From Paenibacillus lutimineralis (GTDB taxonomy: Bacteria; Bacillota; Bacilli; Paenibacillales; Paenibacillaceae), in NCBI RefSeq assembly GCF_003991425.1, contig NZ_CP034346.1, positions 4,873,501-4,937,500 on the forward strand: a stretch of DNA of 64,000 nucleotides, read 5' to 3'. The position numbers and the translations under genes were made by a program. The stretch's first letter is position 1; every line of letters begins with the position of its first letter. Of the stretch, positions 3,122-31,927 are shown piece by piece. The notes under the pieces were generated by a model. It saw only the letters and a list, made by a program, of their open reading frames with translations, ran no database searches and was not told where the DNA came from.

Positions 3122-4402
3122 CTATAATAAACTGCCCGAGTATGGCCGATCGGCAGTAGAAATGCCTGGCAAGCCGCGCAGGCCGAACTCACCCTGCAGT
3201 CTGGCAAGTCGCCGCTCCTGCTCTTCGGCGGACGTGCCTTTGGTACGAAACACCGATTCCAGCATCGCCAGCGCTTGTCGAACATGCGCCTCCTCCACTT
3301 GCTCTCCCGTCTCCCGCAGCCGCTCGACCAACTGCTGCACACCGCGGTAAGGCAACACGACGCCTTGTTCATATTCGACCGCGTTCCAGTTGCGGTTGCG
3401 AACACAAGTGGCAATCGCCAGACAACGATACAACAGTTCAATCGAGTATGCTTCCGTTTGCCCGCTTGCGGCAACCAGATTCGCCTCATCCTCCTTGTCG
3501 TCAAAAGCGAATACGCGCAATCCATAGGGTGGAGCCAGACGTTTCAATACATTGCCCGGACCTAGTTCCACGGCAGTTGCAACGCCAATGCTCTTCTGAA
3601 ATGCAAGGACCGCCGGCCAATTGACGGGGTCCGTTAATCCCCTTGCCAGCATACCCGTGATCTCCGCCGTATTCCCGTAAGGCAGCCCCGTCAAGGAGGA
3701 AACTACGGGGAAATCCATTTCTCCAAACGAGACGCGGCTCAGCACTTCGGCAAATTGCGCCGCCGCCGGCGCCATCAACGGGCTATGGAACGGCGCGCTT
3801 ACCTGCAGCGGAATGACTGTGGCCCCATGGGCGGACAGTCTTTCGGACGCTTCATGGACGGCCTCTTTGTGGCCCGAAATCACTGTTTGCGACTCTGAAT
3901 TCATATTCGATACCACAACAATACGGCTTCTGTCTACGCAGGCTGCGCTAACTTCCATGCATACTTTGGCGACAACATCGGGACTCGGCCCATTCACAGC
4001 GGCCATCGCGCCGATCCCCGAAGCGGCGGCCTCTTGCATCAACTCGCCACGGCGGCGTACGAGCCTGAGTGCATCCGGAAACGCTATAGCCCCTGCACAG
4101 GTTAAAGCGGTAATCTCGCCCAGGCTGTGGCCGGCGGCCATCGCAGGTAGGTATCCCCATTCCCCGCTGTAGACGCGGTACATCGCTACGCCAAGCGCAA
4201 GAATAGCAGGCTGGGCATTGTCCGTCCTCGTCAGCTCCGTCATCGTTCCCTCGTACATCAGGCTGTCAAGGCGCATGCCCAGCGCTTCGTTCGCTTCCTC
4301 CATCGTCGCTTTAACAATCGCATGCCGCTCGCTCAGCGCCTTTCCCATCCCGACGCGCTGCGAGCCCTGACCGGGAAACCATATCGCATGTTTGTTCAGC
4401 AT
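3122..4402 (-). CDS. Discrete (trans-acting) malonyl-type acyltransferase
   Basis: A free-standing FabD-like acyltransferase of 426 residues. It carries the N-terminal GQGSQ motif (residues 11-15), the nucleophile motif GHSLGE with the active Ser at residue 93, and APFHSPLM with the catalytic His; a Phe before that His is the pattern of malonyl- rather than methylmalonyl-loading enzymes. The catalytic part covers roughly the first 290 residues and is followed by about 130 residues rich in Arg, Glu and Ala that are not needed for catalysis in FabD and may be a docking tail. The KS module of the hybrid protein at 6182-16423 lacks an integrated acyltransferase, so this protein probably loads its ACP in trans. 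It is the last gene of the biosynthetic operon, 15 bases after the thioesterase gene; its stop abuts repeat copy A. A GAGGAGC ribosome site lies 10 bases before the ATG. Confidence 0.88.
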   Translation of the reverse strand: MLNKHAIWFPGQGSQRVGMGKALSERHAIVKATMEEANEALGMRLDSLMYEGTMTELTRTDNAQPAILALGVAMYRVYSGEWGYLPAMAAGHSLGEITALTCAGAIAFPDALRLVRRRGELMQEAAASGIGAMAAVNGPSPDVVAKVCMEVSAACVDRSRIVVVSNMNSESQTVISGHKEAVHEASERLSAHGATVIPLQVSAPFHSPLMAPAAAQFAEVLSRVSFGEMDFPVVSSLTGLPYGNTAEITGMLARGLTDPVNWPAVLAFQKSIGVATAVELGPGNVLKRLAPPYGLRVFAFDDKEDEANLVAASGQTEAYSIELLYRCLAIATCVRNRNWNAVEYEQGVVLPYRGVQQLVERLRETGEQVEEAHVRQALAMLESVFRTKGTSAEEQERRLARLQGEFGLRGLPGISTADRPYSGSLL

Positions 4403-4417
4403 CTTCCATCACGCTCC

Positions 4418-5140
4418 TCAGGGGTAGATCGGGGCAGGCGCCTCGGTCAGCATTTTGTTTATCACCGCTACAACATCGCGTTCCCGCTCATGCAGGAAAA
4501 AATGTCCGCCTTCAAACAGCATCAGCTCGCATCCTTCCGTCGCATAACGCTCCCATTCACAAAGCGGACCTTTGACACAGTCGTCATCCTTGCCGTTTAA
4601 GACGGTGAGCCGGAGCGGCAGCGGCGGCCGCATCCGATGCTCGTATTCACCAACAAGCTTGAAGTCGGCTCTTAGGATCGGCATAAACATATCCAGCAGC
4701 TCCTGATGTTGGAACAGCTCGCTCGGCATACCCCCGAGCCGTTTCAGTTCCTCAAGAAACTCGCCGTCTGGAAGCATATGGGTTTGGCGAGTCTCCTCCT
4801 GCTCGCAATGTGGCGCGCCTCTGCCGGAGAGGAAGACTGTCGTAGGCAGTGGGAATCCTTCCTCCCGCAGCGCATGCAGGATCTCATACCCAAGTAGACT
4901 GCCCATGCTGTGGCCGAACAAAGCATATGAATCGGAGCCAAGCGCCGTCTCCAGCACCAGTGGCAGCAAATCCCGGACGGCTTCCGCCGCATCCGCATAG
5001 AACGGCTCGCCCATTCGGCTTCCTCTGCCCGCCAGTTCGGCCGGCACCAGGCGCACGGCAGGATGCAGTCGGTTCGTCCAGCGCTTGTACACTTGTGCGG
5101 AGCCTCCTGCATATGGCAAACAAATTAAAGATATCGTCAT
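4418..5140 (-). CDS. Type II thioesterase (GrsT/SrfD-like)
   Basis: A 240-residue alpha/beta hydrolase of the external thioesterase class that accompanies NRPS and PKS lines. The N-terminal ICLPYAGGSAQVYKRW is typical of the group, the nucleophile motif is GHSMGS (Ser near residue 78), and the C-terminal GGHFFLHE supplies the catalytic His. Family members hydrolyse wrong or stalled acyl groups from carrier domains and so keep the line moving. Neither giant synthetase carries a thioesterase domain, so this is the only classical thioesterase in the locus; it might help release product, but the family is normally a proofreader. GGGAGGCGGG upstream of ATG 5140 is a good ribosome site. Confidence 0.9.
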   Translation of the reverse strand: MTISLICLPYAGGSAQVYKRWTNRLHPAVRLVPAELAGRGSRMGEPFYADAAEAVRDLLPLVLETALGSDSYALFGHSMGSLLGYEILHALREEGFPLPTTVFLSGRGAPHCEQEETRQTHMLPDGEFLEELKRLGGMPSELFQHQELLDMFMPILRADFKLVGEYEHRMRPPLPLRLTVLNGKDDDCVKGPLCEWERYATEGCELMLFEGGHFFLHERERDVVAVINKMLTEAPAPIYP

Positions 5141-5176
5141 AATGCCCGCCTCCCGGGTAACAAGTTGACGCGGCCT

Positions 5177-6151
5177 CTACACGCCAGCAGCAAGCGTGGT
5201 CCAGAACGCTTTTTCCTTCGCGAACAAATCGTCCGCGAGTGCCAGCTCTCTGCCCCGTTCGAAGTCCCCTGTCACAAAGCGGTCCTTCAACAGATCCCAT
5301 CCGTCCCTCACTGCGCCAAGCTGGCCGGACAGCGACTCATGCAGCGCTTCACCGATCAACCTCTTCTCCTGCAGGGAGCGGAGCAGCGACGTGTTGGCGA
5401 TATGCCGGTTACAAATGATGTTGACGCCGACAAGGCCATAGGTCAAATGAGCCTGCTTCTTCTCCGGGTCGGAATCTACATTCCACATGCCCTCTATTGA
5501 GAACTCGCTAAGCTCCCTCGTCAGCCGCTCCGCGTTTTCCACCACTTCAGCCAGCTTCAACTCGTAGGGCTGAATCTTTTCTTGCAGATTGTATACGTAG
5601 AAGGCAGGCCCCAAATAGTCCGGGTTCACGTTGTATTCCGAATTGCCGTACGCCTTGAGAAGCCTTTCCTCCGGCACCTCGTGCTCCTCGTAGCCCGCAA
5701 GCGTATCGTCAATGACGTAGAAGACGCCGCGCTCCTTGTCGTATCCGTTAAACAGCGAATAATGATACCAATGGAACTTTTTCCAAGCCATACTGCCCGG
5801 CAGCCAGTCATACAGATCGACGTTTACGCTCAAGTTGCGTCCGCCCGTAAGCATCTCCCTGATTTCCTCCAGCACCGTCTCCTTGCTGCGGAAATGACCA
5901 GGCTCGATATATCGGATCACCTGTGCCAACGGAAATCTAGCCGGGTCGTCCATATAATACAGCGTGTCAATTGTCGGATAGCGGAAGTCCTTGTCCGTTG
6001 CGGCCTCCCACGGATAGTAACGGTAAATGTTCAAATACGCCGCATCACTGTAACTGGGTTCCTCCGACACCGCAATGGAAAACGCCTGGTTCAGCATGCA
6101 GTTCATCCAAAACTCGTTAAATGGTTTCCTCTCCATCGACAGCTTCATCAT
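5177..6151 (-). CDS. BtrH-like (butirosin biosynthesis protein H family) cysteine acyltransferase/peptidase fold
   Basis: A 324-residue protein that I assign to the BtrH N-terminal domain family, whose founder moves an acyl group from a carrier protein onto an aminoglycoside amine. The N-terminus has NCMLNQAF with a candidate catalytic Cys at residue 18. About 120 residues later comes WLPGSMAWKKFHWYHYSLF with candidate catalytic His, then GYDKERGVFYVIDDTLAG with an Asp: the Cys-His-Asp order of papain-like folds. The C-terminal third is helical and of unknown role. It lies directly after the gene for the synthetase that ends in a condensation domain and lacks a thioesterase, so off-loading or transfer of the finished acyl-peptide is a reasonable inference. 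Ribosome site AAGGAGG precedes ATG 6151. Confidence 0.75.
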   Translation of the reverse strand: MMKLSMERKPFNEFWMNCMLNQAFSIAVSEEPSYSDAAYLNIYRYYPWEAATDKDFRYPTIDTLYYMDDPARFPLAQVIRYIEPGHFRSKETVLEEIREMLTGGRNLSVNVDLYDWLPGSMAWKKFHWYHYSLFNGYDKERGVFYVIDDTLAGYEEHEVPEERLLKAYGNSEYNVNPDYLGPAFYVYNLQEKIQPYELKLAEVVENAERLTRELSEFSIEGMWNVDSDPEKKQAHLTYGLVGVNIICNRHIANTSLLRSLQEKRLIGEALHESLSGQLGAVRDGWDLLKDRFVTGDFERGRELALADDLFAKEKAFWTTLAAGV

Positions 6152-6181
6152 TCGCCGCCTCCTTAGGCTCTGAGTATTATT

Positions 6182-9100
6182 TCAATTAAGCTTGCTTGCC
6201 GCAAGCAGAGCACTGATTTTTTTCTTTGCCCCATCTTCAACCAGCGCGCGAATGATCGCCGTATAATCATCCGCCAGCGCACGGACGGTCTCTTTGCGGA
6301 AAAGACTTGTCGCATATTCCAGCGCAAAACTGATCCTGCCGTCTTGCTCACCCGCTTCAAGTGTCAAATCGAATTTACTGACGCCCGGATCGAACTCCTT
6401 AGGGTCGAATTCAATGCCGCCCGAACGATAAGCGACGCGATCGATATTTTGCAAAATAAACATCGTATCGAATAGCGGATTGCGGCTGCGATCCTGTTCG
6501 ATGCCCAGCTTTTGCACCAAATCCTCGAACGGATAATTTTGGTGCTCCAGCGCCCGCAAGACATCCTCATGCAGCTCGGACAAATAATCGCCAACGGTCC
6601 GGTATGATTCTGGGAAGCTGCGAATTGCGACCGTATTGACGAACATCCCGATCAGCCCTTCCAGCCCCGCATGATTGCGACCCGCAACCGGCGTGCCGAT
6701 AATAATATCCTCCTCACCGCTCCATTTGCTCAGCAGCATCGCATAAGCCCCGAGCAGCACCGTATACAACGTCGTCCCGCGCCCCTGCGCAAACGCCTTG
6801 ATCTTGAGCGTCAACTCCTCATCCAGTCTGAAAATGATCAGACCGCCCTCGAAGTTTTGCAGTTCTGGTCTTGGTAAGGCCCCCTTGAGTGCAAGCGTCG
6901 GTAGCTCCCCTTCAAACGCCTCCAGCCAGTAGCGCTCATGCCCCATATAGGCCTCGCTGCCGATTCGTTCTTCTTGCCATACCGTGTAATCCCGGTACTG
7001 GATATCCAGCTCTGGCAGCTCATCACCGCCATACAAAGTGGTCAGTTCCTGCAGCAGGACGCTGACGGAGACGCCGTCGGTAATAATATGATGAAAGTCC
7101 AGCAGCAGCAGATGGCGCTCCTCGCTAAGCGGAATCAATCCGGCCCGGAACAGCGGGAGACTGCCGAGATCAAACGGACGGATAAAGCGCTCCATCAGCT
7201 CGCTGATACCGCCGAACAATCCTTCGTCTCCGCCTTCCTGGAGCAGCTTGCCTGCCGCCATTCTCAGCCTGGCACCCCGTTCCAGCGTAAATATCGGCTC
7301 CGCATGTACACGCTGGCGGAACTCGTCCTCCTCGTGATGGAACGTCGTTCTGAGTGATTCATGGCGGCGCATCATCGCAAGGAAAGCTTCTTCCAGACGC
7401 TCCACATCGAGATTGCCTTGCATATGCACGGCGAACGGCACATGGTACATCGTTGCTTCGCCCGAGATCAGACCCATCATAAATTGGCGGCGCTGTGCCC
7501 TCGACATGGGGTAATGTTCGCGCTCCGGCTGCTTCGGAATGCACGCAGCAGCCACGGTACCGCTAGTGTCCAGATGAGCTGCTAAACCTTCAAGTGTAGG
7601 ATTCATAAAAATATCGCGCAGTGGCATTTGGACGCCAAAGCGTTCTGCAATGCGGCTGACCATGCCCGCCGCCTTCAGGGAATGGCCACCCAGCTCGAAA
7701 AAGCTGTCCTTGGCGCTGATCGCATCCGCACCGAGCAGTTCCTTCCAAATCTCCGCCAGCTTGCGCTCGGTATCCGTCGATAGCGGAACTAGCTCGCGCT
7801 TACCCGTGTCGGCTGGTCCCGGCTTCGGCAGTGCCCTTCTGTCGATTTTGCCCGTTGGCGTAAGCGGAATCGAATCCAGTACAACCATGAAGGCCGGAAC
7901 CATATAAGAAGGCAGCTTGTCCCCGAGATATTCGCGTAACTGCGCGGTCAACCGGTCTAATGGAGCGTCGCCGTCCGGCTCCGTATCCGCTGCCTCGGCG
8001 TTCTGCATGACGACATACGCGCAAAGCGCATATTCCCCATCCTCTTCCTGAAACGCGGTGACGACCGTTTCCTTCACCTGCTCATGGCGAAGCAGCAACT
8101 GCTCAATTTCACCGATTTCAATCCGGTGGCCCCTGATTTTTACCTGGAAATCGCGTCGTCCCGCATAGGCAAACTCGCCATTTTCAAGCCTGCGCCCAAG
8201 GTCACCCGTACGATACATTCGTTCGCCCGGCGCATACGGATTGGGCACAAAAGCGACATCCCATTCAGGATGGCTGAGATACCCTCGCCCGATGCCCAGC
8301 CCGCCGATGCAAATTTCCCCCATCACGCCTGTCGGTTGCATCTTCAGTCCTTCGTCAAGCACCATCATGACGGAACCTTCGATTGGCGTACCGATCGAAA
8401 TGTCTTCGCCTTCGGTCACTTCCCGGATTGAGGTCCACACCGTCGTCTCCGTCGGACCGTACAAATTAAACAATCTGGCTCCCGTAGCGGCGCGCAGCCT
8501 ACCGAGCACATCGGCCGTCAGCGGTTCTGCCCCGATCATCAATATGCTCAGCTTTTGCAAGCCGTCCGTTTCGCCTCGCTGATTCATCCACCATTTGAAG
8601 CGCGACGGTGTTATTTGCAGCACATCGACGCCGTATGAGTCGATCAGAGCTTGCAGCAAAGCGGCGTCGCCCCGTTCCTCTTCGCTCGCAAGTACAATCT
8701 TCATACCCAGCGTGAGCGGAAGCAGATTTTCAACGACAAAAATATCAAAGGAGACCGATGCCATCGCCAGGATGCTCTGGCCCTTCTCGAACGGAATCCG
8801 GTCTCGGAAGCCGCTGATGAAATTCGCCAGCCCGCGATGCTCGATCATCACTCCTTTGGGACGACCGGTCGAGCCCGACGTATACAGCACATACGCCAAA
8901 TGGTCCGGCTTATGGACAAACTCCAGATTACCTCGGTCCGCCGAATACAGCTCCGGATCATCCAGATACCACTCGGCAACGGCTCTCGTTACGACTCCTG
9001 CATTTGCTTTTTCCGTCAGCAGAAGCGCTTCGCCGCAATCCTCAAGCATCCAATCGATCCTCTCTTTCGGGTAAGCGGGATCAATGGCGACATAGGCACC

Positions 9101-12100
9101 TCCGGCTTTCAGAACACCCAAAATGCCGACAAGCAGAAGCGGGCTACGGGACGCCATGAGCGCGACAATGCGCTCGGGCCCCACGCCCTTCGCCCGTAAG
9201 GAATGTGCAAGTCGATTCGCACGTTCGTTCAGCTCGGCGTACGTCACCGTCTCCGCGCCGAATTGGATCGCCGCCGCATCCGGCGTGCGCGCCGCTTGGC
9301 GCTCTACTTCCTGCACAAACCCCGCCCATTCCGCCGTTGCTTGCCTGGAAGCCGCAGCCACGTCTCCTTGCCGGTCCAGCATGCCTTCCTCAGCTCGAAT
9401 TTCCATCCTACCATTGCTCCCTTCTCTACTCGCGGCCTGTACCGGCATGCCTCCTCCGGACAACAGTGCCAGCAATTGCTCCCGCTCACTTTCACCCATC
9501 AGATCAAGCTCGCCAACCTTGCAGTCGCGTGTTCTGCACATCTCCCGCACGAGTACGGTATAACTTTCCGCCATGCGTCGCGCGGTTTCCTCATGAAACA
9601 AATCCGTTGCGTATTCCAGTTGAAGCTCGATTTGCGTCTCCCGCTCCACCGCTTCCAGAGTCAGGTCGAACTTGCTTGTCCCCGCCTCGAACGGCATTTC
9701 ACTAAAGATGAGGCCGCCTGCTTCAGTCACCGCCCGATCCATATTTTGCAAGACAAACATGGCGTCAAACAAAGGATTTCGGCTTCTGTCCCTATCTGCC
9801 TTCAGCCCTTCAACCAGCTCCTCGAAAGGATACATCTGGTGCGAAAGCGCATCTACGACATGGTTATGCAGTTCCGCCAAATAGGCCCATACAGTCTTGT
9901 CTCTTTCTGGTCTGGTCCGCAGCGCCAGTGTGTTGACGAACATGCCGATCATGCCATGCGTATCGGCATGATCCCTGCCGGCTGCGGGGGTGCCCACAAT
10001 TACTTCGGCCTGTCCGCTGTATTTGGCCAGTATCGCGGCAAAAGCACCCAGAAGCACCGTATACAGCGTTGTCTTCGCTTCCCGCGCCAGCTTTCGCACC
10101 TCCGCTGTTGTCCACGCGTCCAGCTGGAACGAATGGCGGCGGCCCTTATAGCTCGGCAGAGATGTCCGCGGCCGATCCGTCGGCAGCTCCAGCACAGAAA
10201 GTTTGCCATCGAAGATTTCCATCCAGTACTGCTCATGCTCCGCATAAGCGGCATTTACAAATCCGGCTTCCTGCCACACCGCATAATCGCTGTATTGCAC
10301 GCGCAGTTCCGGCAGCGTTTGTCCGGCATACAGCTGCGACAGCTCATTCACCAGCAAACTGGAGGATACGCCGTCCATAATAATGTGATGAACATCTAGT
10401 AGGAGTAGATGATCTTCCTCATTCAGTCTAAGTAGGCCCGCCCGCATCAATGGCAGCTTGTCCAGATGGAACGGGCGCTGGAAGACTCCTATCAGCCTCG
10501 TCATCTCAGCGCCGTCCGGCAGCGCTCCCTGCATCGCTTCGTCTCCGGTGAACGGGTCCAACGCCTCCAGCTTGAACGCATACGGCGAATGAACCATTTG
10601 CCTGAACTCGTCCTTTATCATATGGAAGGTCGTACGCAAGCTTTCGTGTCGCTCGATCAAGGCCGTAAATGCGTCTTGCAGCCGCGCCGCATCCAGCCTG
10701 CCCTGCAAGCGGAGCGCGAACGGCACATGATACATGGTGGCGTCTCCGGCCAGCATCTGCATCATATATTGGCGGCGCTGAGCACGCGACATCGGATACC
10801 ACTCGCGGCGCTCCGCCTTCGAGATTGGCTCGATCGCGACAACGGCGCCACCACGCTCTTTCAGCCAGGCGGCCATTTCCGCAATGGAGGTAAGCTCGAA
10901 TATCAGGCTGAACGGAACCAGGGTGCCCGTCGCCTGCTGCAGCTTGCCCGCCAGCACAGCAGCCTTCAAGGAGTGGCCGCCAAGCTCGAAAAAGTCGTCG
11001 TGAATGCCGATTGGCCCGGCCGTATCGCCCAGCACTTCCGCCCAAATGGCGGCGACTCGCTCTTCCATCCCGTTTCGCGGCAGCTCCAGATCTTCCCGCT
11101 CCCGAAGCCCGAATTCCGGCTCTGGCAAGGCGCGCCGATCCACTTTCCCGTTCGGCGTCAGCGGTATCGCGTCAATTGCCGCGATATAGGTTGGAATCAT
11201 CGCCTCCGGCAGCTTGTCTTTCAGCTTTCTTCTCCATTCCCGCGAAGGGAGCTTGTCCGAAGCGACTACATACGCGCACAGTTCCTTGTCGCCGCTTGCC
11301 TGCTCGCGGACGACCACAACCGCATCCTCCACCTCGGAAAGGGAAATCAACTGCGAGCGAACCTCATTCATTTCAATCCGAACGCCTCTGATTTTTACCT
11401 GTTGGTCGACCCGGTCCACATACATTGCGTTGCCGTCTGGTAGCCACTTTGCGATATCGCCGGTGCGATACATGAAGCGGCCCTCATGATACGGGTGCGG
11501 CACAAAGCGCTCGGCCGTCATATCCGGCTTGTTCACATAACCGTCGGCAAGGCCACTGCCAGCAATGTGCAGCTCCCCGGCTGCACCGATAGGGGCAAGC
11601 TGGCCGCCATAGCCGAATATATAAATTTCGACATTGTGCATCGGCCCGCCAATCGGCACATAACCACCGCGATAAGCACCCGGCTTGTATGTGTACATAT
11701 TGGAGCACACCGTCGCCTCCGTCGGGCCATAGCCGTTAATAATCCGAATCTCGGGGTTAAGCTTCGTATACAGTTCCAGCGTTTCGTCTTTAATCGGCTC
11801 TACCCCAACGAGCATTTTGTCTAGCGTAATCTCGGAAGCCGATTGCTCCAGTAGCCGCGCAACCTCTTTCAGCAAAGACGGCGGCAAATAAGCAAATGTG
11901 ATCCGCTCTTCCGTAATCACCTCGGCAATTCGCCTTGGATCAAGCAATTTCGGCTCCGGGTAAAGAACCGTGCAAGCCCCGAACATAAGCGGCATAAACA
12001 ACTCCGCTACGCTGACGTCAAACGAAATATTCGTTAGACTGAGGCATCTATCTCCCTCGCCGTATTGTCCGTCGAGAAACGTCCGGAGCGAATGTCCGAA

Positions 12101-16423: not shown

Positions 16424-16437
16424 GGCTCCCTTCCCTC

Positions 16438-18047: not shown

Positions 18048-18051
18048 GCGT

Positions 18052-18924
18052 TCAGCCCCCCTTTTGTGCTGCCGACGGCGCGTCAGCCGTCAGCGCTTGA
18101 CCGGCGCGTGCGCCGATACCACCGTTGCCTGAGGTCCGCCAGACATAGACGGAACCTCCAATCAACGCAGCCAGACAAAGCGTTGTAATGATATACAGCG
18201 AAACATCGCCCAGCTTGTCAAACCATTCGTAGAACCCGATGTATTTAAATAAAAAGATGGTGCCCATGGCTGTATTCTGTACCAGAATAGGCGCCCACAG
18301 CGAACCGGTGCGCAAATACAGTGCCCCATAAATCAGGCCCGAACCAATGCTAATGACCGAAAGCGCCGCGCTCGGCTGAAAGTACGCGTAAGCTGCGGCT
18401 TGCAGCACCAAGGCCACATATACAGGCATAACCCTGCGAAGCTCGCTGAAAATAAGGCCCCTGAACAATATTTCTTCAAATGCCGGGCCGATCAAACCGG
18501 CGCCCAGAATGACGTACCAGATCGAATCCCCCTTGATCAGATCGTCGACCAGCGCGGGAATGGACGGAAATTGCCGCGCAATATCGTTAATGACGATAAG
18601 GCCGATGCTGAACAAGCTTCCCGCAAGACCCAGGCCAATCATCAGCAAGACGCGCGAGACGCTTAGCCGTTTGAAGCCCGACGCACGGAACAGATTTTTT
18701 TCCGCATGTGGCCAGATCCATCCTTTGATTCGAAAGATGAGCATATACACAAGCGTAATCAGCGTGAACAGAACGACCATAAACATGGCCGGGTTGCGAT
18801 CCAGAAACTTGGCGAACGACAGCGTTACTTCGTAATTGTAAGTAGAGCGAAGTAGATAGAGCAGCGCATAAAAGACCCCGAGATAAAGCGCGATATTCAC
18901 TATCATGGTCAACACTTTTTTCAC
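18052..18924 (-). CDS. CPBP-family membrane protein 3 (inactive-looking paralogue)
   Basis: A 290-residue paralogue, first of the three to be transcribed. Motif 1 is intact (PAFEEILFRGLIF, Glu 150-151, Arg 155). The motif 2 position reads AYAYFQPSA without His, and motif 3 reads SLWAPILVQNTAMG with Gln-Asn in place of His. The C-terminus is a short Gly/Ala-rich tail. It begins the second half of the biosynthetic locus, separated from the large NRPS by repeat copy B. A GAAAGGAGC-like ribosome site lies before ATG 18924. In other systems CPBP proteins serve in immunity to peptides (for example plantaricin loci); here resistance to the lipopeptide is an inference. Confidence 0.82.
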   Translation of the reverse strand: MKKVLTMIVNIALYLGVFYALLYLLRSTYNYEVTLSFAKFLDRNPAMFMVVLFTLITLVYMLIFRIKGWIWPHAEKNLFRASGFKRLSVSRVLLMIGLGLAGSLFSIGLIVINDIARQFPSIPALVDDLIKGDSIWYVILGAGLIGPAFEEILFRGLIFSELRRVMPVYVALVLQAAAYAYFQPSAALSVISIGSGLIYGALYLRTGSLWAPILVQNTAMGTIFLFKYIGFYEWFDKLGDVSLYIITTLCLAALIGGSVYVWRTSGNGGIGARAGQALTADAPSAAQKGG

Positions 18925-18954
18925 AGGAAAGCTCCTTTCTTCCTTCTATCAGTT

Positions 18955-19288
18955 CGTGTTTAAAAAGTCAGACTTTCAGCACCGAGAAGGTTGGATGAAA
19001 CCAGGGACTGAGGAGCGGAGCGTACGTTTTGGGTACGTGAGCACCTGAGATGTTTCCGCAGGAAACATGACTTCGTGAGCATCTGCTTAGGCCCGGCAGA
19101 GTTCAAGATTCGATGTCGAATAGGCTTTCAGTGTTACTTCGTGTTAGATATAGGATTTATAAGTTATCAACGGAGTTGATGAAATTCTATATCGCAAGAA
19201 AACCTACCTCTGAATCGCGGTCGCTCAGCCTTGAATTGGCCTCGATTGGTTTTCTTATCAAAGGGGGACTTTTAAACAACCTCTAGCA
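18955..19288. repeat. Long intergenic repeat, copy B, inverted relative to copy A (about 330 bp)
   Basis: It starts GTTCGTGTTTAAAAAGTC and ends GGGGGACTTTTAAACAACCTC on the plus strand. The blocks seen in copy A (2717-3119) appear here in reverse order and complement, including the GTTTCCGCAGGAAAC hairpin, the TTCGATGTCGAA hairpin and a 108-112 bp block (19145-19256 here, 2744-2851 in copy A). It separates the stop of the large NRPS gene from the CPBP genes, and may interrupt or modulate read-through between the two halves of the locus. Confidence 0.8.
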
Positions 19289-19330
19289 GATGTATTCTCA
19301 GGATCAGGCGCAATCCGGCTTGGCCTTTTG

Positions 19331-25300: not shown

Positions 25301-28300
25301 CGGATCATGCGGGTACCGAGCCGCTTCCATCATATGCTCGAAGCTGACATCGCCATGCTCGTATGCGGCAAGCAAACGCCCATGGGTCTCGCCAACAAAC
25401 TCTATGATCGGCAGCTCGTCCGCCACCCGCATCCGAATCGGCAGAAACTGGTTGAACATGCCGATCATACGGGCCGTATCCGGATGCGTTCGCCCTGCCG
25501 CCAAAGAACCGATTGCAAATTCCGACTGATGTGTCGTTCCTTTGAGCAACAGCGCATAAGCCGCAAAAAGCAGGCTGTTCATGCTCGCGCCGGCGCTTGC
25601 GGACTTCTCTTTCAGCCGTGCGGTGAGCGCTGCTGGAATGTGGAAGGTATACGTATCACCCGCAAATGTCTGACGGTCGCCGCGCGGTCGATCCAGCGGC
25701 ATATCGAGCGGCGTCGGTGGCTCTGCAAGCTGCTCCGTCCAAAACGCTCGGCTTGCCCTGGCCCGCTCCGAGCCGGACTGTTGCTCCTGCCAAACGGCAT
25801 AATCCTTGTAATGCAGAGACGGCAATGCAAGTTCAGCGCCGTCGATCAAAGCGGTCAACTCCTCCAGCAGCAGCTTGACGGATATGCCATCCGCCGCGAT
25901 GTGGTGGATATTGAGCAATAGATAAGCCTGCGCTCCTTCCGATTCGGGCCGGCAATAACATGCGGCGAGCAGCGGCGCTGTGGCAAGCTCGAGTGGCCGG
26001 AAAAACTCACTCAAGCATTCCGGTAGCGGGATCCCCGCGAGCTCCAGCGTTTGAAGAGCAAAATCGGCCGAATCGTGCACAATCTGGGCCGGAACGCCGT
26101 CAATCCAATGATAGGAGGTCCGCAGCGGCTCATGCCGATCGATCAACTTCCGAAGCGCTGACGCGATTCTCACCTCACCCACCGCACCTGACAGTTTAAG
26201 TGCAAGTGGAATATGGTAGGTTAGTCCGATATCAGCCATGCTTTCCGCCAAAAACATGCGCCGCTGCGGAGGGCTGAGAGGATAGGATGCGGCTTTTGGC
26301 GCGTCTGCAACAGGTTCGTATGCTTCCTTGGCAGCCCTGTCGATCCAGGCTGCCTGCTCTCTGACCGTCGGTAGCTTGAAAATTTCCTGAAGTGGCATGC
26401 GCACTCGGCATTGCTTGTAGATTGCCGAGGTCAATGCGGTCGCCTTCAGGGAATGGCCGCCATGCTCAAAGAAGTGGTCAAGCGCTCCAACCTGCCCCGC
26501 ATGAAGCACTTCTTGCCACAATCCTGCGACAATGATCTCCGTATCTGTGGCAGGCGCTTCATATGGGACTGCGCGCTCCGGCGCAGGCAGACGTTTTTTG
26601 TCCACCTTGCCGCTCCCGTTCAGCGGCAGCTTCTCCAACTGCACAAACGAGGCCGGAATCATAAATGCCGGCAGCTTACCTGTCAGTTGGCTCCGAACGC
26701 TTGCCTGCCCTTCGGTTTGCACTGCAACGATATAAGCGCATAAATACGGCGCTCCATCATTCTCAATCAGCGCCACAAACGCTTCCTTGACGCCAGCGCA
26801 ATCCAGCAGCCTACTTTCAATTTCGCCCAATTCAATTCGGTAACCCCGCAGCTTGACCTGACTATCTATCCGGTCCAGAAACTCCAAATTTCCGTCAGGC
26901 AAACGGCGCACCAGGTCGCCGGTTCCGTACACGGTTTCGCCTTCCCGAAACGGATGCGACCGGAACTTCGAAGCGGTCTGCTCCGGCAAATTCACATAGC
27001 CAGATGCGACACCGTCTCCTGCAATCCATAGCTCGCCAGGTACAAAGTCCGGCTGCAATCGACCCAGCTCATCCAACACTAGCGTTTCTGAACGCGCGAT
27101 CGGCTTGCCGATCGGCACGGTGGCCGTTCCTTGTCCGTCCCATGTCTCCGTGATCGGATAGCAGGTAGCGAACACCGTCGTTTCCGTAGGGCCGTAAACA
27201 TGCAGCAACACGCTCGAACCAAGCGCGCGGAGCGCTTTGCGGATATGCGGTACGGAAGCACGCTCTCCGCCAAATAAAATATGGCGCAGGCCGCGTAGCG
27301 ACTCCAGTCCGTGATCGACCAGGGTATTGAATAGCGCCGTCGTCACAAAGAATACGGTAATGCCTCTTCCCTCAATCAGCTCGGTCAGCCGCATAACGTC
27401 AGCAACCTCTTCTTCGCCGACCAGCGTCAGCTTCGCGCCGTTCAACAGCGCTCCGTACAAGTCGAACGTTGAACCGTCAAAGGCGTAGTTGGAAAGCTGC
27501 AACAGCGCATCGTTTTCCGAAATGCTTACATAATCGGTATGAACGGCAATCCGGGACACATTGCGATGCATGGTCATGATCCCTTTCGGCTTGCCCGTCG
27601 ATCCGGATGTGTACATGATATAAGCGAGATCGTCTGCCGAGCCGTCGAAGTCCAGATTATGGCCGGACTCGCCGTCCCAACTTGTATCGATTCCATCCAT
27701 GTCGATGACACCTATGCTGTCTCCGGCAAGCCGGGTGACCATCTCCATCATCGCAGCCGCAGCCACGATCACCCGCGCTTCTGTATCCTGCAGCATAAAC
27801 AAAATCCGCTCTTCGGGATATTGCGGGTCAATCGGCACATAGACGGCTCCCACTTTCAGCACAGCCAATATCGCGGTAATCATATCGGGCGATCGCCGCA
27901 ATAGCAGCGCCACCTTCGCCCCCGGCGTGACACCGCGCCGTGCAAGCACGCGTGCAAACCGGTTGGCACGTTCGTTCAGCTCGCTGTAGGTATACGCCTG
28001 CTCCCCCATTTCAACGGCAATCTGCTGCGGTGTCTTCACCGCTTGCCGTTCAAACAGTCTGTGCAACGACAACTCCTGCGGCTGGGTGGCGTATGAATGG
28101 CCTAGCTGGAGCAGCCGTTCCCGCTCCCCTGCATCGACGGGATCAAGTTCGCCAAGTGTCGCATGCGGCTGCGCGGCGACTGCCCGAGCCAGTGCTACAT
28201 AATGCTGGGCCATTTGCGCGGCGGCCAGCTGATCGTACAAATCCAGCGCATACTCCAGCGTAAATGCGATACTATCGCCGTTATCCGCGCACTCCCAAGT

Positions 28301-31300
28301 CAGGTCGAACTTGGCCGAGCCACTGTCCATCGCTTGGGGCGTATAAACGACATCCTTGCTCCGCCATTCGGGCAACTCCATATTTTGTAGCGTAAACACT
28401 GAATCAAATAGCGGATTCCGCCCGTATTCCCGTTTCACATTTGCTAGCTCGGCTATTTCTTCATAAGGCACATCCCCGTTGCCGATAGCCGCCAGCGCCT
28501 CCCCATTGACCTGCTTCAACCATTGATCGAAGGGCAAATCGTTTTGTCCGCGCAGGCGGATCGGAACCATGTTGACAAACATCCCGACTATATTTTGCAG
28601 CTCCGGCCGCACACGTCGCGCGGCTGCCGTCCCGACTACGATGTCGGATTCGCCCGTATATTTCGCAAGCAGCGCATAATAAATCGAAAGCAGGACGGTG
28701 TATAATGTTACGCCCTCGCGTCTAGCCAATGCCCGCAGCGATCCGGCAAGCTCCGGCTCCAGCTCGAAGCGTTCAATTGCCCCGCGATAACTTGGCGTCT
28801 GCGGCCTTGGACGGGGGGACGGAAGCGCCGGAGACGGCACGCCATCCCGAAAGATTTCGCACCAATAAAGCTTCTGTCGCTCCAGCCAGCCGCCGCTTCG
28901 GCTCGCTTCCTCCCACAGCGCCAGATCCCCGCCATGAATGGACAACGGCTCCGGCTCGTTCCCCTCGTAAAACCTCGAAAGATCGGACATCAAAATGCCC
29001 ATCGACGTTCCGTCCGTAATGATATGATGCATATCCAGCAGTAGCACACTTGACTCACGCTCCAGCAGCACAAGCTCCATGCGCAACAGCGGCGCTTGCT
29101 CCAGACGAAACGGCTGCAGGAAGCTACGCTGTCGCAACGTCAGCTCAGTCGCCGGCCAGCCGCTTCCGTCAACGACGGCAAGCGGCGGCTCGACCGCTTG
29201 TTCGATGCGCTGCATCACATTGCCTTCTTCCATATAAAAGGACGTCCGTAGCACCGGATGCCGCTCTATCAGCGCCCGCCACGCTGCGCGGAATCGTTCG
29301 ATATCGAGCGGGCCCTTCACCTGGACCACAAACGGTAGATGATAGTTGAGCAGCCCCGGATTCAGCTCTTCCAAAATGAACAGCCGCTTTTGCGCCGAGG
29401 TCGCCGGATAAACCGTCCGCTCCTCCGCTTTGGCCACCGACGGCGCAACGGCAGCAGTTTCATCTCCCTCCTGCGCCTTTTGCTCCAGCAAAGCGGCCAG
29501 CAAACTCACCGTATCATGCAAAAATAGCTCGGTAAGCGTTAGCTCGACGCCAAACACCTCTTGCAGCCTGGCTGCGGCATAAGCCGCCTTGAGCGAATTG
29601 CCTCCTTGCTCAAGAAAGCCGTCCTTCCGGCCTATATAATCCTTTTTCAACACCTCGCACCAGATAGACATGATCCGTTGCTCCGTATCCGAGGCCGTCT
29701 CCAAGTCGATATCCCCGAGCAAGGCATCGCCGCCTTCCACATCACGTTGCTTAAGCGTGGCCGCCGCTTCTAGCTCCGCCAGCTCGGCAAGCGCTTCGGC
29801 AAACTCACCTTCGTGCAGCGCTTCTGCCAATACGTAGCGTTGAATTTTACCAGAGGTTGTTTTCGGAATTCGCCGAACGGGGACAACAAAAGCAACGTCC
29901 AGACCGGCCGATCCGTTCAGCAGCTTTTTCACCTCGGCCATCAGCGGTATAAATCCGTCGATCTTGCCGCGATGCTGAATAAAAACTGCGATCGCATCCC
30001 GTTTGGTCGTTGCATCCTGAACGGCGGCAACCGCCGTTTTCCCGATTTCGGCTCCTTTCAGGCCGCTGATCAACGTCTCCAGGTCATGTGGATACACATT
30101 TTGCCCGTTGACGAAAATGACGTCCTTCATGCGGCCGGTCACATATAAACGCCCTTCCAGTAAGAAACCTAAATCTCCCGTATCTAACCAGCCGTCCGGG
30201 GAAATCGTTTGCTTGTTTACATCGGGCCGCTTATAGTAGCCGCTTGTAACATTGCGGCCTTTAATATGAATCAAGCCTATGCTGCCTGCTGCCGAAGGGT
30301 TACCCGCTTCGTCGCAAATGCGCACCTCGCACTCTTGTACCGGAAAACCTAGCTCGACGATCTCGATCGCGGCATGATCCCCGAGCTCGGCCATTCGTAC
30401 AGGCTGTCCGACAGCAAGCGATTGGCGCTCAAGCTTAATGGTATTCAGATGATCTTCCGTCCCCGGGAACGTCACGGCCAGACTCGCTTCCGCAAGCCCG
30501 TATACCGGGAAAATGCAATTTCCCTTTAACCCGTACGGCTTCATCGCCTCCAGAAAATCGCGGCAATGGGCGGCTGATATGGGTTCGGCCCCGTTAAAAA
30601 TCAACCTGACGCAAGACAAATCCCATGCCGCCGCTCCTTCCGGTTTCCAATGCTGCAGAAAATGCACATAACCGAAATTCGGCGAAGAGAGGCATGTCAC
30701 CCGATGCTTATGCGTAAGTTCCAGCCATTTCATCGGATGAAGCACAAACGTCGAGGTCGGCAAGTGCAACTGATTCATGCCGCAAAACAGCGGCGAAAGA
30801 TGAAAACCGATGAGCCCCATATCATGCGTCAGCGGAAGCCAGCTTAGCGAAGAATCCCGCTCCGTCGACTGCGCCCCATGGATAATGGCGCATATGTTCG
30901 ACAGAAGATTGCCATGCGTCAGCACAACCCCCTTCGGGTCTCCGGTAGAGCCAGATGTGAACTGGATGAATGCGATGTCTGTTTCGGCAGCGTCATACGG
31001 CTCAGCCTCGGGCCGGCCGGCATTCGCAGCCGCCGCAAGTACTTCCACAATCGGCACGCTACCGGACTCAAGCTGGGCCAGCGCCTCCGCCTCCCCGTGC
31101 TTTAAAGCGTAGCCTTGAATTCCTGGCAAAAGTTCTTCATCACAGAGCAATCTCGGCGCTTCCAACTGCTTGCATATCTGGATCAGCTTTTTGCGCCCTT
31201 CGTCCGTACGCGCCGCCGTCACAGGTACGGGAACAATGCCGCCGAGCACGCAGGCCCAGAACAGAAGGATGAACTGTTCGTTATCTTCCGTCTGCATGAC

Positions 31301-31477
31301 GGCAAAGTCACCAGGCCCAAGCCCCCGCTCGCGTAGCAGATGGAGCGCCCTTCCGGCCAATGCAAGTAATTGGCCGTACGACAAGTAACGCTCCTGACCG
31401 CTTTCGCAAAATAAAATTCCCGCATCGTTTTCCTTGCGCGCCAGCAATACGCCAGACAAATTACGAATGGTTCTCAT
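19331..31477 (-). CDS. Lipopeptide NRPS: FAAL-ACP-C-A-PCP-C-A-PCP-C-A-PCP with C-terminal extension
   Basis: A 4048-residue synthetase. Approximate landmarks: fatty acyl-AMP ligase (FTSGSTG near 175) that activates a free fatty acid; ACP (GGNSL near 626); lipo-initiating condensation (HHIITDG near 818); adenylation 1 (YTSGSTG near 1292); PCP (1672); condensation (HHIAADG near 1860); adenylation 2 (2340); PCP (2740); condensation (HHIVADG near 2923); adenylation 3 (3395); PCP (GGESLLLVQ near 3787); then about 210 residues of unassigned sequence. Pockets: adenylation 1 D-G-F-F-L-G-V-V-F (Ile-like, Val possible); adenylation 2 and 3 both D-V-W-H-F-S-L-V-D (Ser). No epimerisation or thioesterase domain was found. 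The last PCP has the GGESLLLVQ form often seen before a ketosynthase, so the chain probably passes to the KS of the hybrid protein. GGAGG lies 10 bases before ATG 31477, 28 bases after panD. Confidence 0.93.
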   Translation of the reverse strand: MRTIRNLSGVLLARKENDAGILFCESGQERYLSYGQLLALAGRALHLLRERGLGPGDFAVMQTEDNEQFILLFWACVLGGIVPVPVTAARTDEGRKKLIQICKQLEAPRLLCDEELLPGIQGYALKHGEAEALAQLESGSVPIVEVLAAAANAGRPEAEPYDAAETDIAFIQFTSGSTGDPKGVVLTHGNLLSNICAIIHGAQSTERDSSLSWLPLTHDMGLIGFHLSPLFCGMNQLHLPTSTFVLHPMKWLELTHKHRVTCLSSPNFGYVHFLQHWKPEGAAAWDLSCVRLIFNGAEPISAAHCRDFLEAMKPYGLKGNCIFPVYGLAEASLAVTFPGTEDHLNTIKLERQSLAVGQPVRMAELGDHAAIEIVELGFPVQECEVRICDEAGNPSAAGSIGLIHIKGRNVTSGYYKRPDVNKQTISPDGWLDTGDLGFLLEGRLYVTGRMKDVIFVNGQNVYPHDLETLISGLKGAEIGKTAVAAVQDATTKRDAIAVFIQHRGKIDGFIPLMAEVKKLLNGSAGLDVAFVVPVRRIPKTTSGKIQRYVLAEALHEGEFAEALAELAELEAAATLKQRDVEGGDALLGDIDLETASDTEQRIMSIWCEVLKKDYIGRKDGFLEQGGNSLKAAYAAARLQEVFGVELTLTELFLHDTVSLLAALLEQKAQEGDETAAVAPSVAKAEERTVYPATSAQKRLFILEELNPGLLNYHLPFVVQVKGPLDIERFRAAWRALIERHPVLRTSFYMEEGNVMQRIEQAVEPPLAVVDGSGWPATELTLRQRSFLQPFRLEQAPLLRMELVLLERESSVLLLDMHHIITDGTSMGILMSDLSRFYEGNEPEPLSIHGGDLALWEEASRSGGWLERQKLYWCEIFRDGVPSPALPSPRPRPQTPSYRGAIERFELEPELAGSLRALARREGVTLYTVLLSIYYALLAKYTGESDIVVGTAAARRVRPELQNIVGMFVNMVPIRLRGQNDLPFDQWLKQVNGEALAAIGNGDVPYEEIAELANVKREYGRNPLFDSVFTLQNMELPEWRSKDVVYTPQAMDSGSAKFDLTWECADNGDSIAFTLEYALDLYDQLAAAQMAQHYVALARAVAAQPHATLGELDPVDAGERERLLQLGHSYATQPQELSLHRLFERQAVKTPQQIAVEMGEQAYTYSELNERANRFARVLARRGVTPGAKVALLLRRSPDMITAILAVLKVGAVYVPIDPQYPEERILFMLQDTEARVIVAAAAMMEMVTRLAGDSIGVIDMDGIDTSWDGESGHNLDFDGSADDLAYIMYTSGSTGKPKGIMTMHRNVSRIAVHTDYVSISENDALLQLSNYAFDGSTFDLYGALLNGAKLTLVGEEEVADVMRLTELIEGRGITVFFVTTALFNTLVDHGLESLRGLRHILFGGERASVPHIRKALRALGSSVLLHVYGPTETTVFATCYPITETWDGQGTATVPIGKPIARSETLVLDELGRLQPDFVPGELWIAGDGVASGYVNLPEQTASKFRSHPFREGETVYGTGDLVRRLPDGNLEFLDRIDSQVKLRGYRIELGEIESRLLDCAGVKEAFVALIENDGAPYLCAYIVAVQTEGQASVRSQLTGKLPAFMIPASFVQLEKLPLNGSGKVDKKRLPAPERAVPYEAPATDTEIIVAGLWQEVLHAGQVGALDHFFEHGGHSLKATALTSAIYKQCRVRMPLQEIFKLPTVREQAAWIDRAAKEAYEPVADAPKAASYPLSPPQRRMFLAESMADIGLTYHIPLALKLSGAVGEVRIASALRKLIDRHEPLRTSYHWIDGVPAQIVHDSADFALQTLELAGIPLPECLSEFFRPLELATAPLLAACYCRPESEGAQAYLLLNIHHIAADGISVKLLLEELTALIDGAELALPSLHYKDYAVWQEQQSGSERARASRAFWTEQLAEPPTPLDMPLDRPRGDRQTFAGDTYTFHIPAALTARLKEKSASAGASMNSLLFAAYALLLKGTTHQSEFAIGSLAAGRTHPDTARMIGMFNQFLPIRMRVADELPIIEFVGETHGRLLAAYEHGDVSFEHMMEAARYPHDPSRNPLFDTMLIVHNQFEDEKLKERGDGWSMEPLPVSHGTSKLDFKLDLYNDGEGGLRAELEYNTELFYKGTMERLAARLLYILEQTVASPDLICGDVAMVTPAEEAGFAAWNDTGHLYPTEKTIHGWFAESARRWPDFPAVRSAEGSLTYGELNDRAERMATVLRGKGVAVETIVPVAAQRSLSMMIAIMAVLKAGGAYLPIDPEHPPERIRGILEDSGARLLLAGTKWIHTLPAFQGEMLDLDTLAAAAASELPKGEEETDLSPQAGPENLAYVIYTSGSTGKPKGVMVEHRAAINRLNWMQTAYPLNEHDVILQKTPITFDVSVWELFWWSFAGASLYLLEPGGEKEPSVMLRTIKEQAITVMHFVPSMLGVFLPYAADSGRGSELYSLRYVFTSGEALKPAHVAGFYSLMERGGQCWLINLYGPTEATVDVSYYDCPNAGAGTIPIGKPIHNIRLYIVDERMRLQPIGVSGELCIAGAGLARGYHNRPDLTEQSFVTNPFAAGDKLYRTGDRARWLPDGNIEYLGRFDHQVKLRGLRIECGEIEHALLLQAEVRDAIVMTVTDHAGEPALCAYLVTVEGKAPEEASIRATLKELLPDYMIPSNFIAMEAFPLSPSGKTDRGRLPQHRFAEPLACGEAPATPTEQRLAELWQEVLGLAASGQDDPAAIGREAHFFQLGGHSLRAAQLAGLIEQRYGADFAMKDVFTAPLLREMAARIDNAAPKRATVIARAESRPFYPLSLAQNRLFVLQQLYPDSTAYNLPLVLNLTGKVDQDRLREAIQGLIDRHEPLRTSFDWSDGKPVQSIHKRVSFELFVHALMDAADLNTFARAVVRPFDLRKAPLIRAFLATDGESRHTLLLDIHHIVADGVSMNVMARDFEQLYRGSSLQPLPIHYKDAAVWQQEWMASEEREQQEQYWAFRLAGTLPVVQLPTDYPRPPEQSFEGAKLALSIPPELAEGIGMAAEQWGVTPFHIWLAAYHTLLHLMTGQDDLIVGTPIAGRFHPATESLVGMFVNTLPIRSMLFGELSFRAFAEQLKETTLGALDNGLLPFEHMVTMLDVPRDLSRNPLFDTMFVMQHMEAGQAAADALQFEVQVPDTRVSKLDLTFEIADQGAKGAALTIEYATVLFKEDSIRRMAEWYSRIVGLALAEPERTLGGIGLLDAVAAERLSETFNRTTTPYASGDTVEVYLERQAGATPQAVAVAAEDGVLTYAELNRRSNRLAQVLRKQGVKREERVAIVMDRSLEMIIAIFGVLKAGGAYVPVAPGLPSERIRYMLDNSGAKLVLTKGKAPEGLEMFLPFIDVHEALTQERDDFPVEKLHDSRSLAYVLYTSGSTGQPKGVMIEHHSVVNRIGWMQKQYELDASGVIMQKTPITFDVSVWELFWWSFAGAKLVLLPPGGEKDPALMMDTIARHGVTTMHFVPSMLHLFLEHPGLLRSEARLESLRHVFASGEALTADQVQRFRERIGVPFNARLVNLYGPTEATVDVSYYDCSEGDIPIQVPIGKPIDNISLYIVSEAMKLQPVGIAGELCISGAGLARGYIGRPDLTDEKFVDNPFAAGSLMYRTGDLARWLPDGTIEYLGRIDHQVKIRGQRIECAEIEHVLLSHPTVSEAVVMKRDAANGSEYLCAYIICSDPADHQELRDFAALSLPDYMVPQAMVELPAMPLSPNGKIDRKALPEPELTADSGTPFVEAASDIELAIAAVWREILQRDDFGIHHRFFDVGGESLLLVQTHQRLEELYPGVLGVTDLFTYPTIASLAAYLQSRNRELANWSWSGLPVGDDCVSKGYAAERIGSVQFQLDRVVAEGLVELAASRSVAVEAAAYAVYLYFWRGESGMGRLVLPAMTDNGLIAPKEIDFTEVRDFDTLLRHAAKRVSVGECYTARQVRKQPQAEAGFALFPLFAGAAQHGFKEREALLERFDVVLYMDDAAPPSGAEGPVLGGVWTYDARRLGKEAVLDWASAYLELLSSVVEQYRAVQGSADSGA

Positions 31478-31505
31478 AATCGGCAGGCCTCCGTTCTGTT
31501 CTTTA

Positions 31506-31889
31506 TCACAGCGTTGTGGAATGCAGTTCTTGATAATCCTCCGTTACGATGCGATTATGCTCGTCCATAATGACGACATGCGGACGATACGTGCGGGCTA
31601 CCGATTCCTCCATCATCGCGTAAGAAATAATAATGACGCGGTCACCTGGCTGCACCAGCCTGGCAGCAGCGCCGTTCAGGCAAACCATACCCGAGCCTCT
31701 TGGACCGGTAATGACATACGTCTCCAGCCTTGCTCCGTTATTTATATTGACAACTTGCACTTTTTCGTTCTCCAGAATGTTTGATGCATCCAAAATATCC
31801 TGATCGATGGTTATGCTTCCTACGTAATTCAAATTGGCCTCCGTCACGACTGCACGGTGAATTTTGGACTTATGCATCTCTCTAAACAT
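31506..31889 (-). CDS. panD: Aspartate 1-decarboxylase precursor
   Basis: A 127-residue pyruvoyl enzyme that makes beta-alanine from L-aspartate. The N-terminus matches Bacillus-type PanD ([20 protein letters not shown]), with the self-cleavage Gly24-Ser25 pair that yields the pyruvoyl group; [10 protein letters not shown] and CLNGAAARL are further family signatures. Start ATG 31889 gives the usual length. A GTG 12 bases upstream is in frame, but it almost touches the AAGGAGA ribosome site; with ATG 31889 the spacing is a rather long 13 bases. panB and panC are not adjacent, as they are in most Bacillota. Instead the gene is first in line before the large NRPS (28-base gap), which suggests that beta-alanine, either as a building block or for phosphopantetheine supply, is needed for this pathway. 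Confidence 0.93.
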
Positions 31890-31927
31890 GAATACACTCA
31901 CTCTCCTTGTGGGGTGATCTTTGGAAA

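Follow-up and report, generated by a model that had tools for sequence, protein, structure and literature searches.

A family of FAAL-initiated trans-AT NRPS-PKS gene clusters in Paenibacillaceae, predicted to make a linear lipopeptide

Introduction

What would be made by an assembly line that starts from a fatty acid, joins amino acids to it, and meets a ketosynthase (KS) only after three of them? The question is raised by a biosynthetic gene cluster of Paenibacillus lutimineralis, which lies within a 64,000-nt stretch (G000:C1:4873501-4937500; here called the window) of the 6.50-Mb single-contig genome. An initial annotation of this DNA had described a fatty acyl-AMP ligase (FAAL)-loaded nonribosomal peptide synthetase (NRPS) joined to a polyketide synthase (PKS) module that lacks its own acyltransferase (AT), and had proposed the product fatty-acyl-Ile-Ser-Ser-(beta-keto C2)-X-Gly. 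Here we report that the cluster belongs to an orphan family of trans-AT NRPS-PKS lipopeptide pathways. We consider it reasonably probable that it encodes an NRPS/trans-AT-PKS line for a linear lipopeptide, working by the steps proposed below, and we predict from the sequence that the window product is acyl-Ile-Ser-Ser-CO-CH2-CO-X-(Gly or beta-Ala)-amine. The assembly-line part of the earlier structure is retained in this prediction; an amide end and a possible beta-alanine were lacking from it.

Results

The cluster genes all lie on the minus strand, in the transcription order GT2 glycosyltransferase, panD, protein A, CPBP proteins 1, 2, and 3, protein B, a BtrH-like gene, a thioesterase (TE), a free AT, and an M20 peptidase. 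Six strong condensation-domain matches were found in the whole genome, all inside the cluster, with two weak ones elsewhere. The first synthetase, protein A (19331-31477; 4048 amino acids [aa]), has the order FAAL-ACP-C-A(Ile)-PCP-C-A(Ser)-PCP-C-A(Ser)-PCP-half C, where ACP and PCP are acyl and peptidyl carrier proteins and C and A are condensation and adenylation domains. Pfam found four AMP-binding domains (the FAAL and three A domains), three condensation domains, and four carrier stretches in 19331-31477, in agreement with the order first read, to which the half-C has to be added at the end. As expected of a FAAL-initiated synthetase, the N-terminal FAAL (29798-31477) is followed by an ACP and a C domain, and both 3pbk ("Fatty Acyl-Adenylate Ligase") and FadD32 are found among its 12 listed PDB relatives; the NCBIfam fatty acyl-AMP ligase model PRK09192 scored 522.5 bits on whole protein A, under its cut-off of 600. 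The pocket of A1 (26558-28072) reads DGFFLGVVFK, which we take to be an Ile code, and those of A2 (23399-24931) and A3 (20258-21730) both read DVWHFSLVDK, presumably a Ser code.

Protein B (6182-16423; 3413 aa) continues with KS-linker-ACP-C-A(X)-PCP-C-A(Gly or beta-Ala)-PCP-C, and here too Pfam bore out the earlier domain order, with one KS, three condensation domains, two AMP-binding domains, and three carrier stretches in 6182-16816. The start of B had been placed at 16816, which falls in the third CPBP gene; the start is the ATG at 16423, which has a good ribosome site. The KS, with a KS-AT linker remnant (14567-16336), carries DTACSS, HGTGT, and NIGH, the active-site Cys-His-His, and among its 51 listed PDB relatives are PksL, PksJ, and "AT-less" KSs. 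It has no AT in cis and is accompanied by a separate malonyl-type (FabD-like) AT (3122-4402) with GHSLG and APFHS motifs that scores 275.9 bits against TIGR00128 (cut-off, 260.9), the arrangement of a trans-AT module. Beside the AT lies the type II TE (4418-5140; PF00975, 127.6 bits), so that both of these genes of the initial annotation were confirmed. Ketoreductase (KR), dehydratase, methyltransferase, cis-AT, and terminal TE domains were not found by Pfam at E 0.001 in A or B; a KR or an integrated AT was what the initial annotation had named as able to overturn it. Since no epimerization domain was seen in A or B either, L-residues are expected. The pocket of A4 (11111-12610), which would select the residue X, reads DVAYLGGVCK, and that of A5 (7826-9316) reads DIVQMGLVWK, Gly by the canonical code, for which we propose beta-alanine. 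Re-extracted in this way, the five pockets read as before (Ile, Ser, Ser, X, and Gly), with substrates named by the usual pocket codes. The terminal C domain (6239-7510) has an intact FHHIITDG. A match of 718 bits between A4 and linear gramicidin synthase A had hinted at X being Gly, a candidate that we rejected, because two domains contribute to this score; the highest for any one of them is 379 bits, near the scores of the other A domains.

Read in order, these parts suggest a line in which the FAAL would activate a fatty acid and load it onto the first ACP, three modules would add Ile, Ser, and Ser, and the half-C tail of A would sit where the chain passes to the KS of B. Malonyl-charged by the free AT, this KS would then add one C2 unit kept as a ketone, giving acyl-Ile-Ser-Ser-CO-CH2-CO-, and B would add X and then one small residue, with the TE clearing stalled carriers. 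Once the product is released, its ketone may still be modified, and the M20 and GT2 proteins may trim or glycosylate the product.

Such an arrangement could be a single oddity. To place it, we searched 295 Paenibacillaceae genomes. The BtrH-like protein matched 57 of them at E 0.001, mostly weakly, and we read the DNA around 20 high-ranking loci plus that of one further genome (G240). Counting the window, this yielded 18 complete clusters and a nineteenth, in G284, that is interrupted by a contig end; three loci (G111, G024, and G161) showed no synthetase match in the 40 kb read and were left out of the count. Searches independent of this bait enlarged the set. With CPBP protein 2, the 21 best genomes (at least 42% identity) were exactly the cluster genomes, followed by 18 more at 27 to 35%, and the half-C tail search returned 18 genomes, namely, the CPBP set minus the clusters called type 4 below. 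Two whole clusters (G079 and G089) were added, and another contig of G284 proved to carry the first part of its cluster, from panD and A through the CPBP trio into the beginning of B. The family thus comprises 21 clusters in Paenibacillus and Cohnella species, and because 20 further genomes repeat the order of A, CPBP trio, and B, a chance arrangement is excluded.

The clusters fall into five layouts. Type 1 (n = 11, the window included) has the window layout, and type 3 (G068, P. pasadenensis; G078) is the same with no M20 found in the stretch read. In type 2 (G237, G288, and G284) an additional A-PCP protein is encoded, and protein B of G237 and G288 is longer by two modules with a DIVQ-type pocket. 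In type 4 (G265, Cohnella phaseoli; G240; G186) the DIVQ module and the terminal C are absent, no panD lies close by, and the AT stands among the CPBP genes; the tail of the G265 cluster (L063:8711-18360) encodes a short-chain dehydrogenase/reductase, an AMP ligase, the BtrH-like protein, a protein like ketoacyl-ACP synthase III, a 325-aa protein, an M20 protein, and a major facilitator superfamily transporter. In type 5 (G079, loci L118, L119, and L124; G089, loci L120, L121, and L127), B is longer by a module with the pocket DLTKIGEVGK, presumably Asn-like, and two PKS proteins follow, the first of which, in G079, has a KS and a KR; the end is formed by panD and then a C-A(DIVQMGLVWK)-PCP protein with a further tail. 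The stretches read from these two genomes, 92 and 80 kb long, gave no BtrH-like, AT, TE, or M20 match. The type 2 extra protein (L052:12772-16008) begins with a weak second half-C (Pfam E 6e-4, under the cut-off), followed by an A domain with the pocket DVHVMGVVWK and a PCP.

Across these layouts the FAAL, the half-C tail, the CPBP trio, and KS-ACP-C-A(X) occur in 21 of 21 clusters. The AT, the TE (a weak match in type 4, at 79 to 86 bits), and the BtrH-like protein are found in 19, panD in 18, M20 in 17, and GT2 in 10, all of them among the 11 of type 1. Pockets were read in 20 clusters, G240 being left out, with A-domain pieces under 250 aa (3 rows) and C-domain pieces under 350 aa set aside; the C-domain count covers the clusters other than G079, G089, and the second contig of G284. 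The first pocket reads DGFFLGVVFK in 19 of them, G284 having DGFFLGMVFK. All 20 have DVWHFSLVDK as the second pocket, and 18 have it again as the third, where G079 and G089 show DVWHFSLIDK; the X pocket is DV[ACS]YLGG[VI]CK in all 20. That X might be beta-alanine is not supported, as its pocket is retained in type 4, where no panD is near the cluster.

The half-C tail (19331-19996 in the window), at the junction of NRPS and PKS, matches just the C-terminal half of a condensation domain, the HHxxxDG lobe being absent. Aligned from 18 clusters, the tails (216 to 226 aa) matched the C-terminal half of C domains by hhalign at 98.0% probability (E 3e-13), and those of type 4 alone did so at 94.9% (E 4e-8), although phmmer with the window tail had missed them; the tails of the three remaining clusters match the window tail by phmmer.

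Horizontal movement is suggested by the BtrH-like proteins, which are 91 to 92% identical across genus labels, yet only 78% identical to that of one same-genus genome. Where records are named, the BtrH-like genes nearest to that of the window come from Paenibacillus, including P. chitinolyticus, of which strain NBRC 15660 encodes the protein. Among 398 genomes of the class, the BtrH-like profile matched one at E 1e-20, the window's own, in a screen whose nonmatching genomes are partly listed and which clusters without this gene would escape.

The most constant companions of the synthetases are three membrane proteins of the CPBP family, whose genes sit between those of A and B in every cluster. 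Protein 1 (Rce1-like; 18052-18924; PF02517, 53.4 bits) is 27% identical to protein 2 (17238-18047; 49.3 bits) and 25% identical to protein 3 (16438-17241; 43.6 bits), as tandem paralogues. CPBP (CAAX, Rce1-type) proteases have an EExxxR motif plus two catalytic His motifs. All three proteins pass the Pfam Rce1-like cut-off, and in an alignment of 18 clusters the full motif set is absent: protein 1 keeps the EE but has Gln at the last-His position and lacks the middle His, protein 2 has Lys-Glu in place of the Glu pair and its His replaced, and protein 3 keeps the EE and the last His with the middle one replaced. Ordinary proteases are therefore unlikely. Since the trio stays while accessory genes vary, its role should lie in the common head of the product, in the A-to-B hand-over, or in self-protection. 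As a membrane-seated pseudoprotease set it would hold the synthetase, move the lipopeptide head, or protect the producer. The constancy of the trio in 21 clusters also lends weight to a more specific proposal, in which it is a working part of a pathway to a beta-ketoamide lipopeptide that takes beta-alanine through a Gly-like pocket and is released in the manner of CtaG; we offer this only tentatively, and all its parts are unlikely to hold together. For the combination of CPBP trio, half-C, peptidyl beta-ketoamide with beta-alanine from a Gly-like pocket, and CtaG-type release we found no precedent. A phage defense function was considered for the CPBP proteins and dropped, there being no PADLOC match. 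The relatives of protein 2 outside the clusters, at 27 to 35% identity (e.g., G160:C1:585046-585783), are mostly open frames of ∼540 to 660 aa.

The gene that opens the operon in types 1 to 3 is panD (31506-31901), for an aspartate 1-decarboxylase. It scores 178.7 bits against the equivalog model TIGR00223 (cut-off, 106), its product has the Gly-Ser processing site in the sequence VGS, and it is the second copy in the genome. In a search of 30 genomes, G079 and G089 not among them, each of the 11 cluster-free genomes of the same genus had one panD, whereas 17 of the 19 cluster genomes had two, the second lying in the cluster in 16 (for G284, on the contig that carries A) and at a distance in G186; G265 and G240 had a single copy. 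With G079 and G089 added, 18 of the 21 clusters contain the gene, and these are the same 18 that have a DIVQ[ML]GLVWK module (pocket read in 17; assigned by domain similarity in G284). Neither is present in the three type 4 clusters. We infer from this co-occurrence that the A5 pocket, nominally for Gly, may take beta-alanine: beta-alanine from PanD most likely enters at the chain end, perhaps as the residue of the DIVQMGLVWK pocket.

The same gene could instead serve the carriers. By this account PanD raises pantothenate and CoA, and hence the supply of 4'-phosphopantetheine arms, A5 takes Gly, and the product is free of beta-alanine. A phosphopantetheinyl transferase does lie directly upstream of A in G265, at the place that panD has in types 1 to 3, and such transferases stand beside the G040 and G237 clusters and, by similarity, those of G068 and G288. 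Several features of the pocket and of the sample also tell against the use of beta-alanine. DIVQMGLVWK is near the canonical Gly code, from which it departs by smaller side chains at two places; every pocket retains the amino-binding Asp, which beta-alanine pockets usually lack; and the co-occurrence reflects few independent lineages, the three clusters without both being of one type. Against a supply of cofactor stands the pairing of panD with the DIVQ-type module, which holds in all 18 clusters that have either, the other 3 having neither; the cofactor account is weakened as well by type 5, since panD there directly precedes the gene of the last, terminal DIVQ module in two clusters. Precedents for a dedicated building-block decarboxylase also exist, in CrpG for a cryptophycin building block (PMC7459860) and, as proposed, in CtaF, an aspartate decarboxylase giving beta-alanine for closthioamide. 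We therefore rate the cofactor explanation as possible rather than probable, and retain beta-alanine at the chain end as the preferred reading.

How the chain leaves the line may depend on the last C domain and on the protein encoded at 5177-6151, which had been labeled BtrH-like. Its score against Pfam BtrH_N is 17.1 bits, under the cut-off of 29.7, but the label is supported by the predicted fold: in its AlphaFold2 model (pLDDT, 92.4), compared by Foldseek and VIA-align with AziU3, CtaG, and CcbD, the two-part fold of these proteins extends over most of the chain. We predict an acyltransferase of the BtrH/CtaG/CcbD fold with the catalytic residues Cys18, His127/His130, and Asp148/149, assigned by order and conservation (Cys in 33, His in 34, and Asp in 34 of 34 aligned rows). 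This Cys-His-Asp enzyme, possibly with the terminal C, would move the chain from its carrier to an amine, and release in the window layout is probably amide formation by the enzyme, the terminal C, or both. A second BtrH-like gene, 37 to 42% identical, lies elsewhere in several genomes (L099, L101, L105, and L106).

Several points weigh against amide release. Identity to CtaG and CcbD in the structural alignment is just 8 to 12%; a profile search against the PDB found no relative, and a sequence search there gave one nonsignificant row (E 0.79). The gene was the bait for 19 clusters, so that its presence in them is by construction, and G079 and G089 were without it, as without AT, TE, and M20 genes, in the 80 to 92 kb read. 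We had entertained the BtrH-like protein as a constant of the family and rejected this when the bait-independent searches added these two clusters. Their lack of the gene makes amide release weaker and strengthens another account, in which the terminal C cyclizes the chain to a macrolactone through the hydroxyl of a Ser, or the TE hydrolyzes it, and the BtrH-like enzyme has some other job. Cyclization or hydrolysis would fit the intact FHHIITDG of the terminal C and the two Ser hydroxyls on offer, and the enzyme would be dispensable for some members. It accords poorly with the three type 4 clusters, which end in a bare PCP with no terminal C and have the BtrH-like protein (although the gene was bait), and with the solved relatives of that protein, AziU3, CtaG, and CcbD, the last of which has, by structure titles, also been solved with a PCP domain. 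We regard cyclization or hydrolysis as rather unlikely and keep to release as an amide.

These results also redraw the cluster, for which 3122-31889 proved too narrow. The domains, TE, and AT of the initial annotation stood, and it had missed the second panD, the three CPBP genes (16438-18924), the half-C ending A, and the M20 and GT2 genes. panD, the CPBP genes, and the M20 gene belong to the cluster, and GT2 is probably its border gene. The M20 peptidase/deacylase (1321-2769; PF01546, 92.9 bits) is annotated from a TTG, and its true start is probably the ATG at ∼2694, because the stretch 2694-2769 falls in a repeat copy. GT2 (32566-33636) lies directly upstream in 10 of the 11 type 1 clusters; when 40 genomes of the genus were searched for it, copies of at least 79% identity occurred only in the 4 that have the cluster, and the best elsewhere was ∼32%. 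When 15 flanks of a few kb each were compared (types 1 and 3, G237, and G288), recurrence in more than 4 was confined to GT2, M20, and open reading frames antiparallel to GT2. A 407-aa protein without a Pfam match lies near three type 1 clusters, on differing sides (L033:1911-3131; L038:15813-17033). Between A and the first CPBP gene is a repeat (18935-19329; no strand) resembling a miniature inverted-repeat transposable element, with inverted ends and at least 46 matches across the genome including itself (40 of 303 first-look candidates scored); it is an insertion outside the pathway, and a second copy lies at about 2715-2960. No RNA families or tRNAs were found in the window, and a promoter scan 5' of panD gave 7 matches, against 5.4 in shuffled sequence.

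Discussion

The claim of probable novelty stands as far as the literature searched goes: we found no described product, and none appears in the excerpts of PMC7459860, PMC8788784, PMC12943608, PMC11837247, PMC4397504, and PMC6772006. In the excerpts of a FAAL review (PMC11837247), the Firmicutes are represented by mycosubtilin, bacillomycin D, iturin A, and a single entry for mycobactin, and Paenibacillus is not mentioned. Two genomes that encode the BtrH-like protein, HGH0039 and P. pini, were mined in PMC4397504, which reports an iturin-like heptapeptide variant for HGH0039 and, in its table, has "Incomplete NRPS predicted" for P. pini.

A family of Paenibacillus and Cohnella for which no described product was found now has a testable structure prediction, and it offers a natural series of one fixed head with five tails. 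It also makes two questions testable: whether a Gly-like adenylation pocket can take beta-alanine, and what function CPBP proteins resembling pseudoproteases serve in the making of a peptide.

The nearest comparison in the Bacillota is with iturin, mycosubtilin, and bacillomycin, likewise made by FAAL-loaded hybrid NRPS/PKS lines with a free malonyl transacylase. An iturin-type cluster with reshuffled modules would share the FAAL start and the free malonyl transacylase (compare the mycosubtilin/iturin layout legend in PMC4397504), but we consider it very improbable. In the iturins, extension and amination of the fatty acid come first, and seven residues are then added before cyclization. The present line has no FAAL-ACP-KS with an aminotransferase ahead of the peptide modules; its KS comes after three amino acids, neither an aminotransferase nor an epimerization domain was seen, and a CtaG-fold enzyme is present. 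Closthioamide offers a second likeness, in a CtaG-fold peptidyl transferase and in the aspartate decarboxylase CtaF proposed to supply beta-alanine. Its pathway is not known to include a modular NRPS, FAAL, or KS, and CtaG is proposed to join two carrier-bound acyl groups. CcbD of celesticetin and AziU3 of azinomycin share the fold that makes our enzyme a release candidate, and BtrH of butirosin is a weak sequence match (BtrH_N); the identity is that low 8 to 12% by structural alignment, and the context here is a lipopeptide. With the Bacillus trans-AT PKS-NRPS hybrids (PksJ and PksL) the cluster shares a KS without its own AT, a free AT, and a post-KS linker remnant; unlike them, the window layout has a single KS, no reductive domains, and a FAAL start. 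Cryptophycin CrpG is likewise a PanD-like decarboxylase inside a biosynthetic pathway, although it makes 3-amino-2-methylpropionate for an unrelated assembly line. Set beside these systems, the parts of the cluster are of known kinds; what is new is their order, the half-C at the junction, the CPBP trio, the link between panD and the DIVQ module, and a CtaG-fold enzyme in a FAAL-initiated line.

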